A DNA stretch of 64,000 nucleotides, from the NCBI RefSeq assembly GCF_000981585.1, contig NZ_LN831776.1, positions 2,957,186-3,021,185 of the forward strand, written 5' to 3'. The notes beneath the pieces were generated by a model. The model saw only the letters and a program-made list of their open reading frames with translations, had not been told where the DNA came from and made no database searches. The position numbers and the translations under genes were made by a program. This document shows, one piece after another, positions 1 to 54,054 of the stretch. The stretch comes from Paenibacillus riograndensis SBR5. Its GTDB lineage: Bacteria; Bacillota; Bacilli; Paenibacillales; Paenibacillaceae. Numbering within the stretch: the first letter of the stretch is position 1; every line of letters begins with the position of its first letter.

Positions 1-105
1 GTACAGCTCAGGACGGTTTTTCCTCTCCGCCAGAAAAGGGAAATCACGGCTGAATTCGTCCGCCAGCTGCTGCCCATATTCCAGATGCATCCAAATGTTC
101 GGCAT
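1..105 (-). CDS. Zinc-dependent phospholipase C-like protein, N-terminal fragment (cut by window edge)
   Basis: This is the first 35 codons of a minus-strand gene that runs off the left edge. The peptide begins MPNIWMHLEYGQQLADEF, which resembles the start of the zinc-dependent phospholipase C family proteins of Bacillota (MPNIW-H-.-FG). The ATG at 105 is preceded by an AGAGGGGTG ribosome-binding site at good spacing. A second ATG 4 nt upstream is in another frame and meets a stop after about 20 codons. Only the start is visible, so the family assignment rests on the N-terminal signature and the metal ligands cannot be checked. Confidence 0.6.
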   Translation of the reverse strand, partial: MPNIWMHLEYGQQLADEFSRDFPFLAERKNRPELY

Positions 106-51710: not shown

Positions 51711-52991
51711 TTACCTGGCAAGCTTTGCAATAGCTTCTTCCACCGTAAGCAGCTCCTCGCTTTGCTGCGACATATCCTTGAGCCGGAGCTTGCCTTCGGC
51801 CGCTTCGCTCTCCCCGACTAGAATGACGTAGCGGATACCTTTCGTGTTCGCTGCGGCCAGCGTTTTCTTCAGCTTGCGTTTCCCGGTATCCACAGCAGTA
51901 CGGATGCCGGCAGCACGGATGGCAGCGGCTGCTGTCAAGGCCTGCGGCATACACTCTCCGACGGGTATGACCAGCACCCCTGATGTTTCCACACGGACAG
52001 CCCGTTCGCCAAGCAGAGCCATAATCGACTCCATGCCGAAGGAAATGCCCACCGTGGGATATTCGATGTCCTCGCGCCCCACCAGCTTTCCGATGATCGA
52101 GTCATATCGGCCTCCGCCGCCAAGGCTGGAAGTGTAGGCACCGGAAGCATCGAAGATCTCGTATACCGTCCCTGTGTAGAAGGACAGGCCCCGTGACAGA
52201 AAAGGATCGAAGACGCAGGTCTCCGCGAGTCCAACCGCCGCGATCAGCCGCTGCAGAGCCAGCACCTCCAGAGCACCCGGTTCCCCGCCCAGTCCATAGT
52301 TCTCCGCCAGCTCTTCAAAAGATGGAGCATCCATGTCCAGCAGCTCCGCGAGCGCACTTACAGCAGCCGGAGCCACGCCTTTCCCTTCAAGCTCCGCGAG
52401 CACGCCGCGGCTGCCGATTTTGGCCAGCTTGTCGAGCGTCAGCATCACTGAGAGATGCTCCCCCGCAGGCACGCCAACCGCCGTCAGAATTTCCCCGAGA
52501 AACCGCCGGTTGTTCCATTTCAGGGTGACGGCAATCTCCAGTCTGCGGAAGGCTTCCGCCGCAAGCTGCATCAGCTCGGCTTCTCCCTGCGGCCCGGCAA
52601 TCCCCACCACATCGGCGTCGCATTGCAGGAATTCGCGCAGGCGGCCTTTTTTGACCGGTCCATCGCGGAATACCTTGCCGATCTCATAGCGCTTGTAAGG
52701 AAATTCAATGCCCGGATTCAGGGCGATCACTTTGGCAAAAGGAATCGTCAGATCGTAGCGCAGTCCAAGCTGTCGGCCGCCCTGATCGGTAAGCTGATAC
52801 ATCTCGCGCAAAATCTCATCGCCTCCCGCATATTTGGAGGTCAGCAGCTCCAGCTCATTCAGCAGGGTGGTATCCATGGATTCAAAGTCATAGAGTTCAA
52901 ACAGTTCGCTCAGCGTAGAGCGGACCTTCTGGCGGATGGCCTGCTCCCGGCCGAAATAATCATAGGTTCCTTTGACGTTCTGCATAATCAT
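51711..52991 (-). CDS. hisS: Histidine--tRNA ligase
   Basis: A class II aminoacyl-tRNA synthetase of about 426 residues. The N-terminal VKGTYDYFGREQAIRQKVRS and motif 2 region RYEIGKVFRDGPVKKGRLRE, then FLQCDADVVG, are HisRS-like. The histidine-binding motif appears as DPFLSRGLSFYTGTVYEIFD, motif 3 as YPTVGISFGMESI, and the C-terminal anticodon-binding domain starts at GVLVIPVGE. It charges tRNA-His. The sequence is somewhat divergent from the main Bacillus HisS, so it may be a second copy. ATG 52991 has AAGGAA 9 nt upstream; ATG 52985 is also possible. A long leader with attenuator features precedes it. Confidence 0.92.
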   Translation of the reverse strand: MIMQNVKGTYDYFGREQAIRQKVRSTLSELFELYDFESMDTTLLNELELLTSKYAGGDEILREMYQLTDQGGRQLGLRYDLTIPFAKVIALNPGIEFPYKRYEIGKVFRDGPVKKGRLREFLQCDADVVGIAGPQGEAELMQLAAEAFRRLEIAVTLKWNNRRFLGEILTAVGVPAGEHLSVMLTLDKLAKIGSRGVLAELEGKGVAPAAVSALAELLDMDAPSFEELAENYGLGGEPGALEVLALQRLIAAVGLAETCVFDPFLSRGLSFYTGTVYEIFDASGAYTSSLGGGGRYDSIIGKLVGREDIEYPTVGISFGMESIMALLGERAVRVETSGVLVIPVGECMPQALTAAAAIRAAGIRTAVDTGKRKLKKTLAAANTKGIRYVILVGESEAAEGKLRLKDMSQQSEELLTVEEAIAKLAR

Positions 52992-53010
52992 TAACCCCGT
53001 TTCCTTTTTT

Positions 53011-53104
53011 TTAAAATATAAGAAAGTATAAGTTTCACACAATACTTTATCCTTATATTTCTCGCTGAAACGGATACCGTCCTTTTAAGGACGGTATCCG
53101 TTTC
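53011..53104 (-). repeat. GTGAAA...TATAAA intergenic element, copy B, with 18-bp hairpin head
   Basis: On the minus strand the copy begins with GAAACGGATACCGTCCTT, a 2-nt spacer and the exact reverse complement (53104-53067). It continues with CAGCGAGAAATATAAGG and TGTGTGAAACTTATA, and ends in TTATATTTTAAA next to the hisS SD. It aligns with copy C (55535-55622) over the head and tail. Confidence 0.75.
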
Positions 53105-53118
53105 TGCTTGGCTCTGTA

Positions 53119-53154
53119 CAAATAAAAAATGCGCCGGACCTCTTGGTCCCGCGC
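53119..53154 (-). terminator. Intrinsic terminator inside the hisS leader
   Basis: On the minus strand GCGCGGGACC (53154-53145), loop AAGA and GGTCCGGCGC (53140-53131) form a 10-bp stem with one mismatch, followed by ATTTTTTATTT. It lies between the leader peptide and hisS on the same strand. Confidence 0.82.
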
Positions 53155-53219
53155 GCAAATATGCGGCAGGGAGGCCAAACGCAAAATGCGTCAGCCCTCC
53201 CTGGAAAATGTCAGGAGTG

Positions 53220-53273
53220 CTAACGCTGCTTGTGGTGATGCTGCCGATTCAGTATGATAGTTATGCTGTTCAT
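53220..53273 (-). CDS. hisS leader peptide with three consecutive His codons
   Basis: The 17-residue peptide is MNSITIILNRQHHHKQR. The His codons CAT CAC CAC are at 53240-53232. AAAGGAT (53289-53283) lies 9 nt before the ATG. The promoter is near-consensus and about 30 nt further upstream. Size, His run near the C-terminus, position before a terminator and alternative hairpins match the organisation of HisL-type leader peptides of enterobacterial his operons, although the sequence itself is unrelated. Confidence 0.75.
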   Translation of the reverse strand: MNSITIILNRQHHHKQR

Positions 53274-53308
53274 GAGCATCAGATCCTTTCTAGGCTGAAT
53301 TACAGCAC

Positions 53309-53337
53309 ATTATAGCGGATCGGGCGAAGTCATGCAA
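53309..53337 (-). promoter_or_regulatory. SigA-type promoter of the hisS leader transcript
   Basis: On the minus strand TTGCAT (53337-53332), a 17-bp spacer and a perfect TATAAT (53314-53309). The predicted start near 53302 places the leader-peptide SD about 12 nt into the transcript. Confidence 0.85.
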
Positions 53338-53382
53338 GGCCAGACCGCAGATTCGATCCATAAACAAAGGGAGTATTTTACT

Positions 53383-54054
53383 ATGAACGATACCCAAATC
53401 ATTGCCGCTGCCGAACAATTCGCCCAAGAGCAACTGGGGCAGGACACCACCGGCCATGACTGGTTCCATACGGACCGTGTGCGCAATATGGCGGGTCTGA
53501 TCGCAGAGATGGAACAGGCGGATGTGTTTGTCTGCACCTTAGCCGCACTGCTGCATGATGTGGCCGACGAGAAGCTGAATCCCTCCAAGGAAGCAGGGCT
53601 GCAAAAAGTACATAGCTGGCTGGCCGGGCATCTGGGTGATGAAGGGCAGATCCGGCATATTCTGCAGATCATTGAAACGATGTCTTTTAGCGGCGGAGGC
53701 GGCAAGCCTATGACTACTCTTGAAGGTCAAGTGGTGCAGGATGCGGACCGGCTGGATGCGCTGGGGGCGATCGGGATTACGCGGGTGATGGTTTTTTCGG
53801 GGGCCAAGGGACGTCCGGTCTATGATCCGGAAATTGCGCCGCGTGACGAATCCTTGCAGAAGGAGTACCGCGACTATTCCAAGGGAACGGCGGTCAATCA
53901 TTTTTACGAGAAGCTGCTGAAATTAAAGGACTTGATGAATACCCCCTATGGGCGCAAGCTGGCGGAGGAGCGGCACGCGTTCATGGAGAGCTTTTTGGAG
54001 CAGTTTTATAAGGAATGGAATCAAGGAAGCCGGAAGCAGGGAAATCCCGCTTGA
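53383..54054 (+). CDS. HD-domain metal-dependent phosphohydrolase (YpgQ/YedJ-like)
   Basis: The 223-residue protein has the HD-domain metal-ligand series: HDWFHTDRV, LAALLHDVADEKL (the His-Asp pair) and VVQDADRLDALGAIGITRV, characteristic of the YpgQ/YedJ group, which hydrolyses nucleotides. ATG 53383 follows AAAGGGAGTATTTTACT. An in-frame ATG at 53332 has no SD and sits in the hisS promoter. The gene is divergent from hisS and lies 36 nt before dbpA, so the two may be cotranscribed. Confidence 0.88.
   Translation: MNDTQIIAAAEQFAQEQLGQDTTGHDWFHTDRVRNMAGLIAEMEQADVFVCTLAALLHDVADEKLNPSKEAGLQKVHSWLAGHLGDEGQIRHILQIIETMSFSGGGGKPMTTLEGQVVQDADRLDALGAIGITRVMVFSGAKGRPVYDPEIAPRDESLQKEYRDYSKGTAVNHFYEKLLKLKDLMNTPYGRKLAEERHAFMESFLEQFYKEWNQGSRKQGNPA

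Follow-up and report, generated by a model that had tools for sequence, protein, structure and literature searches.

A proposed five-segment histidine attenuator upstream of a second histidyl-tRNA synthetase gene in Paenibacillus

The enterobacterial his attenuator carries a leader peptide with His codons, and a ribosome stalled on it leads to antitermination via alternating hairpins built from six segments. In Bacillota, T-boxes are the usual sensors of tRNA charging before synthetase genes. Histidine leader peptides have already been put forward in this phylum. Naville and Gautheret (2010) proposed one before hisS*/hisZ of bacilli, hisS being under a T-box (PMC2965389), and His-leader attenuators were described in 2022 before the his operons of the B. 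cereus group, of Peptostreptococcaceae/Lutispora and of Erysipelotrichales (PMC9413887). The ilv-leu leader of S. aureus, described in 2018, is leucine-rich and shows translation-dependent attenuation with supporting mutants (PMC5794164).

The leader described here is located on the minus strand of a stretch of 64,000 nucleotides (the window, i.e., positions 2957186-3021185) of the 7.9 Mb genome of Paenibacillus riograndensis SBR5, ahead of a second gene for histidyl-tRNA synthetase (HisRS), hisS2. It is a better resolved variant of the histidine leaders and not a first one: an earlier note on this DNA had contrasted it with the T-box control normal for synthetases in Bacillota, and the proposals of PMC2965389 and PMC9413887, as far as the available portions of the two texts go, precede it. 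The open-licence PMC literature searched here yielded no description of the five-segment scheme, of such leaders before NUDIX or orphan genes, or of hisS2 leaders in Paenibacillus.

With the enterobacterial his attenuator (RF00514) the hisS2 leader shares the His peptide and a stall proposed to favour antitermination; compared with the six-segment enterobacterial leader, the first segment is missing. RF00514 gave no gathering-score match in the window, and none up to E 5 in 52600-53600. The comparison with the three cited systems, limited to the available portion of each text, leads to the following: (i) the bacilli leaders of PMC2965389 likewise have a short His ORF and a terminator ahead of a paralogue of the T-box-controlled hisS; unlike the present leader, hisS*/hisZ are treated without a pairing scheme in that portion, and the word «Paenibacillus» has 0 occurrences in the text; (ii) the leaders of PMC9413887 also have His codons (three to five consecutive ones) directly preceding attenuator, antiterminator and terminator hairpins, but they control the his biosynthetic operon and the present one is proposed to control hisS2; the word «hisS» has 0 occurrences in the text; (iii) in S. 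aureus ilv-leu, also from Bacillota, attenuation likewise depends on a leader peptide rich in the amino acids concerned, but these are Leu/Ile, and the antiterminator proposed there takes up the U-tail without disturbing the terminator stem (PMC5794164).

The leader and its gene in the window

The elements named by the earlier note were confirmed on the minus strand, with coordinates that agree to within a few bases. As read here, they are the following.

53309..53337, minus strand: predicted promoter (-35 TTGCAT at 53337-53332, 17-nt spacer, -10 TATAAT at 53314-53309)
Ahead of the leader-peptide ATG, minus strand: SD AAAGGA, from reading of the sequence
53220..53273, minus strand: leader peptide gene of 17 codons, MNSITIILNRQHHHKQR and stop (ATG at 53273-53271, UAG at 53222-53220 inside segment 1)
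53232..53240, minus strand: His codons CAT CAC CAC, the first being 14 nt ahead of segment 1
53212..53226, minus strand: segment 1, GCGUUAGCACUCCUG, overlapping the last peptide codons and the stop; predicted partner, segment 2
53188..53203, minus strand: segment 2, CAGGGAGGGCUGACGC; predicted partner, segment 1 or 3
53166..53182, minus strand: segment 3, GCGUUUGGCCUCCCUGC; predicted partner, segment 2 or, as antiterminator, segment 4 and the terminator loop/start of segment 5
53170-53166 and 53176-53171, minus strand: antiterminator pieces of segment 3, i.e., CCUGC (to segment 4) and GGCCUC (to the terminator loop/start of segment 5)
53145..53155, minus strand: segment 4, CGCGCGGGACC, terminator 5' arm or partner of CCUGC of segment 3
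53137..53142, minus strand: GAGGUC, which spans the terminator loop and the beginning of segment 5 and pairs with GGCCUC (segment 3) in the outer antiterminator
53124..53140, minus strand: segment 5, GGUCCGGCGC (53140-53131), terminator 3' arm, and U6 (53129-53124)
53067..53104, minus strand: perfect palindrome (match 53110-53060), copy of a dispersed repeat between the leader and hisS2
51711..52985, minus strand: hisS2, second histidyl-tRNA synthetase gene, proposed to be controlled (ATG at 52985; NF009085, 561.8 bits for a cut-off of 540)

The predicted -35 agrees with TTGACA at only 3 of 6 bases. Among the 84 aligned leaders of relatives, TATAAT was found in 81, and TTGCnn-16..18-TATAAT is present in 74 (at most one mismatch being allowed in the -10). 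The U-tailed terminator that the earlier note had seen before the HisRS gene is confirmed as a conserved hairpin, the predicted arms of which (53155-53145 and 53140-53131) hold one G.G mismatch (53150:53135). A generic scan called 0 promoters and 0 terminators at the leader. The fold energy of the leader corresponds to z = -8.3 versus 100 shuffles, for a 334-nt stretch in which the unrelated perfect palindrome is included. This palindrome (53104-53067) was rejected as a component of the switch, being a dispersed repeat with 44 match rows in the source genome. No Rfam family reached its gathering score anywhere in the window; the matches around the leader, all below that score, were dismissed.

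The product of hisS2 carries PF13393 and HGTP_anticodon and is HisRS-like over its whole length when compared with known structures (best, PDB 6nhi). Its closest relative found is from P. jilunlii (94%); the relatives named belong to Paenibacillus, Saccharibacillus and Cohnella, with a few records labelled Bacillus. The genome also contains another hisS (TIGR00442, 500.1 bits for a cut-off of 286.75) and hisZ (NF008941, 528.2 bits for a cut-off of 447). The earlier note was thus right in assigning the leader to a HisRS gene, but this gene is the second one: the other hisS has a T-box match just upstream (C1:6154567-6154880, 66 bits, under the Rfam cut-off).

The T-box model (RF00230) matched 25 places in the genome (5 above cut-off), none of which is at the hisS2 leader. 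T-box control of hisS2 was rejected on this basis, in line with the earlier note, which had seen no T-box there. With a T-box ahead of the other hisS and a leader peptide ahead of hisS2, the genome seems to use both controls, which points to one shortage being sensed in two ways within the same genome. A T-box binds the tRNA directly, whereas the proposed sensor of the hisS2 leader is the ribosome together with the peptide.

Conservation of the leader peptide and of the pairings

Among 100 genomes of the genus, hisS2 was detected in 62 (E <= 1e-100), and the leader lies upstream of it on the same contig and strand in all 62. The distance between them is 29-157 nt in 61 genomes (29-67 nt in 55 of the 62) and 755 nt in one, L010; the latter had been taken for a leaderless hisS2, which was overturned when the covariance model located the leader. 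In the source genome this distance is 138 nt from the model match. G096 has the leader and no hisS2 at the survey threshold.

The first covariance model, R1, was built from these leaders, read directly in 61 of the 62 genomes. Its match in these 61 genomes is by construction, and the evidence is therefore the direct reading of the upstream regions; G054 is the sole model-independent find. In the source genome R1 found no second leader, only an opposite-strand match over the same site; such opposite-strand matches were disregarded. The weak model matches L201 and L202 were dropped, there being no such leader there.

Alignment A1 was built from 107 loci, reduced to 85 distinct upstream regions, of which 82 passed a terminator and segment-1 pattern; with L024 and L059 added by hand and L010 omitted, it finally has 84 rows (78 distinct). 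All 84 leaders have a start codon (ATG or GTG) behind a leniently defined SD, and in all of them one or more of the six codons preceding Arg code for His, so that the His-codon leader peptide claimed by the earlier note is conserved. One His codon is found in 6 leaders, two in 22, three in 52 and four in 4. The run of His codons is thus kept in relatives as that note expected, but not absolutely: the six leaders with a single His codon have Tyr or Phe adjoining, and in 3 of them this His is only 8 nt from segment 1.

The tail of the peptide is mostly QLHHHKQR, with the variants HHYKQR, HYYHKQR, HHYYKQR, HHFTKR, FYYHKQR and FHYYKMR. By pattern count, Q stands two residues ahead of the His/Tyr/Phe run in 71 of the 84. 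The codon after the His run is AAR in 72 leaders and ACC in 7 (GAT, ATT and CAA also occur); the second one is CAG in 65, with AAG, CGG, GAG, ATG and GGG elsewhere. UAG is found within segment 1 in 83 leaders, L047 having CAG instead. The first His codon is 14 nt from segment 1 in 63 of the 84 leaders and 17 nt in 16; the last one is merely 8 nt ahead of it in 68.

It must be noticed that, in the hisS2-type leaders of A1, the His codon at -5 from Arg is always CAT (70 of 70) and that at -3 always CAC (68 of 68). Given these fixed codons, codon choice within the His run is constrained too.

The earlier note had proposed two exclusive pairings, 1:2 and 2:3. Covariation establishes the former: in the hisS2 set (78 distinct leaders), 94.3% of cells are paired, with 7 double-changed pairs, a number reached in 0 of 500 shuffles; the first seven pairs of the helix are kept in 84 of 84 leaders. 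When other leaders are added, 8 pairs and 28 cells are double-changed (0 of 500 shuffles as high). Within the hisS2 set, 22 of the 30 double-changed cells come from one column pair, which is unpaired in 37 leaders; clean double changes are those of L055 (G-C to A-U), L070 (U-A to C-G) and L047 (U-A to C-G). In L047 the change of U to C removes UAG, and the matching change in segment 2 preserves the 1:2 pair.

For 2:3, the earlier claim stands across families and not within the hisS2 set. In the latter, 90.8% of cells are compatible, versus 38-54% when the segments are slid, and no covariation was found (1 double change, 374 of 500 shuffles as high). With the NUDIX-type leaders described below, there are 13 double-changed cells, a count that none of 500 shuffles reached, and 5 double-changed pairs, reached by 5 of 500, 10 of the 13 cells falling at two pairs of one related group. 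A second alignment, A2, consists of 27 of the 84 rows and 9 others, chosen for diversity. Since the shuffle tests ignore the relatedness of the leaders, separate families and differing letter changes were given more weight than counts. Pairing 2:3 is supported on these grounds, less strongly than 1:2.

The guess of the earlier note, a pairing of the terminator with segment 3 plus its 3' flank, is borne out as an antiterminator of 11 pairs, in which 99.4% of cells are paired (20-53% when slid), with 5 double-changed cells, reached in 0 of 500 shuffles, and 2 double-changed pairs, reached in 13 of 500. Its inner part, CCUGC with GCRGG (GCGGG in the window), has a 5-pair core present in all 78 distinct leaders, which mainly reflects the invariance of both sides; the one double change is in L193, and this inner 3:4 pairing is, as 2:3, supported but weaker.

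The outer part, GGCCUC/GAGGUC, first spotted in a predicted fold and then tested by covariation, is shown by sequence comparison: 98.9% of cells are paired, with 5 double-changed cells and 0 of 500 shuffles as high. Its CCUC/GAGG is elsewhere CCCC/GGGG, CCUU/AAGG, CCUA/UAGG, CCCU/AGGG or CCCA/UGGG, and all four positions are paired in 43 of 48 parsed sites (out of 60, some of them also in A1); the remaining 12, among them NUDIX-type leaders whose loop is shorter, fall outside the set in which the outer helix is supported. The conservation of the terminator loop is explained by its use in the outer antiterminator. In the same manner, column 116 of A1, a purine, makes a mismatch in the terminator of 52 of the 78 leaders and is always paired with segment 3; it would be kept because the inner antiterminator pairs with it.

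Ribosome position and direction of the response

Two marks of the attenuator class are found here, i.e., a short ORF with a run of His codons ahead of hisS2, and mutually exclusive RNA structures that include a U-tailed terminator before the gene. We are fairly confident that this leader is a five-segment ribosome-mediated transcription attenuator which senses a shortage of charged His-tRNA and controls hisS2. From the anatomy of the leader, we infer the following positions. With enough His-tRNA, the ribosome would get to the UAG within segment 1 and cover this segment; 2:3 and the terminator 4:5 would then form, and transcription would stop before hisS2. When His-tRNA is scarce, the ribosome would halt at the first His codon with its leading edge just short of segment 1; the latter being free, 1:2 would form and release segment 3, which would capture the 5' arm of the terminator (CCUGC/GCGGG) as well as its loop and 3' arm (GGCCUC/GAGGUC), and hisS2 would be transcribed. 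This would be a testable five-segment mechanism for an amino-acid leader peptide in Bacillota. The proposed direction is the opposite of the textbook one, since the stalled ribosome would expose, and not hide, the first segment.

A ribosome's leading edge extends roughly 12 nt beyond the A-site codon's first base. With the first His codon 14 nt away, a ribosome halted there is expected to clear segment 1 and one at the stop codon to cover it. A first His codon at 14 or 17 nt from segment 1 in 79 of 84 leaders fits a choice of structure by ribosome position.

The RNA ahead of the ribosome was folded at equilibrium, with the edge placed, for each of the 78 leaders, where a His codon 14 nt upstream would put it. 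With the ribosome at the stop, the mean probabilities are 0.93 for 2:3 and 1.00 for the terminator, p(4:5); when it waits at the first His codon, mean p(4:5) is 0.60. For the leader of the window, p(4:5) is 0.05 at the first His codon versus 1.00 at the stop. The probability of the outer antiterminator exceeds 0.5 in 30 of the 78 leaders when stalled and in 0 of the 78 at the stop. The outcome is sharply sensitive to the position of the edge: p(4:5) falls below 0.5 in 33 of the 78 leaders with segment 1 free, in 11 with 1 nt covered and in 0 with at least 3 nt covered. Without a ribosome, termination is predicted for the window (p(4:5) of 0.98), mean and median being 0.67 and 0.96 over the 78 leaders.

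In a wider set (73 of 76 leaders scored, 3 having no U-run by pattern, and L230 and L270 being one site), p(4:5) is below 0.5 in 30 of 73 when stalled and in none at the stop, and in 25 of 73 the two ribosome positions give the same prediction. A clear response is predicted for only 1 of the 7 leaders of the second family described below. Before segment 5 exists, the inner 3:4 pairing has a probability of 0.80 in the stalled state, 0.45 at the stop and, if half of segment 1 is covered, 0.91; as it forms in both ribosome states, it does not by itself separate them. The predicted folding supports the direction of the response but not its efficiency.

The earlier note had proposed that the ribosome stalled on the His codons covers segment 1 and favours 2:3, which, as in the classical four-segment scheme, would somehow block the terminator. 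A stall at the last His codon, 8 nt from segment 1 in 68 of 84 leaders, would indeed mask the start of this segment. On the other hand, a ribosome held 14 nt before segment 1, on the first His codon, should leave that segment free; moreover 2:3 shares nothing with segments 4 or 5, the covarying antiterminator is left without use, and masking of segment 1 gives a mean p(4:5) of 1.00 in the 78 leaders, so that a starving cell would stop hisS2. This direction is very improbable. From anatomy and equilibrium folding, the stall on the first His codon probably leads to antitermination, i.e., the reverse.

It is improbable, though less so, that the nascent chain itself halts the ribosome via a small molecule (free histidine or an antibiotic) and not via uncharged His-tRNA. 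Such an arrest peptide would be consistent with the Gln that, in 71 of 84 leaders, precedes the His/Tyr/Phe run by two positions, with Tyr or Phe in place of His in some of them and with possible resistance genes among the targets (NUDIX, S66 peptidase). The residues after the run vary, however (though they are mostly Lys-Gln), the fixed Arg-stop is accounted for by segment 1, and a series of cognate codons ahead of the gene for the cognate synthetase typically indicates that charged tRNA is sensed. A constitutive leader with a leaky terminator, in which the His codons are a relic, is hardly probable: for many leaders, equilibrium folding prefers the terminator whatever the state of the ribosome, and some leaders precede a broken or absent hisS2 (L192, L283), but two-sided changes are seen in 1:2, 2:3 and the antiterminator, the reading frame and the His codon position are kept in 84 leaders, and a second family has the same layout with other sequences.

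Other genes behind the leader

A second covariance model, R2 (E <= 1e-4), matches 148 of 394 genomes of the family, in 12 of 19 genera, and 20 of 398 genomes of the class, 17 of which are from the same family. Among the matches listed, 60 sites were fetched, picked for extra copies, low scores and spread over genera (some are shared with A1): 38 are followed by a hisS2 match (partial at L251, L255, L277 and L279), 12 by a NUDIX-like gene and 10 by neither. NUDIX-like genes were assigned by tblastn to the protein of L197, which is a PF00293 protein. Outside the 60 sites, L195-L199 are full leaders ahead of NUDIX-like genes.

The 10 sites with neither are L243-L248, L231 and L239, L283 and L264. 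For the protein of L243-L248 (genus g2, same family), the similarity to HisS2 is confined to residues 121-424 of the latter (hhalign probability 98.8, E 1.4e-16, 17% identity); this protein is probably a non-catalytic derivative of HisRS. L231 and L239 precede an orphan family of about 123 residues, with no Pfam match, the 65 homologues of which are named hypothetical or uncharacterised. L283 has a hisS2 with an early stop behind the leader. At L192, which is not among the 60 sites, a leader is present and no hisS2 was found within the stretch examined.

Some sites call for a separate description. The peptide tails of L243-L248 are, e.g., QYYHFNQR. Outside the 60 sites, at L200 (G337), ahead of a NUDIX-like gene, the leader has no peptide and no segment 1, segments 3 to 5 being kept. 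At L190 (G096), likewise outside the 60, the leader MINLVLKQPYHHKKR retains all five segments; behind it come a short ORF similar to the beginning of the NUDIX gene and then the gene of an S66 LD-carboxypeptidase, presumably MccF-like.

A search for hisS2 in 299 genomes of the class (E <= 1e-110) missed a second family, which NF009085 detected (L230, L291-L296). Its HisRS are 44-47% identical, its peptides are, e.g., FLQQHHHT and FLQLHHHH, and segment 1 starts 15-16 nt after the first His codon. When the pieces were cut by hand and folded separately, hairpins 1:2, 2:3, 3:4 and 4:5 were predicted in 7 of 7, with other sequences.

The leader could be used as a bait for genes wanted when the charging of histidyl-tRNA fails, proteins of unknown function included. 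A more speculative reading, which we hold unlikely, is that of a portable sensor of HisRS failure, placed in Paenibacillaceae-like genomes before a spare HisRS, a NUDIX hydrolase, an orphan, a degenerate HisRS and, in one genome, the S66 stretch, and responding to natural HisRS inhibitors rather than to dietary histidine. If it were true, the targets would be a resistant or reserve synthetase, or hydrolases which destroy the inhibitor.

In another family, at L297 (G283), a HisRS detected by NF009085 lies behind a His leader, MVITLVQSFTTKHHHHH and stop, the terminator RNA of which is different by eye; it is perhaps an independent histidine leader.
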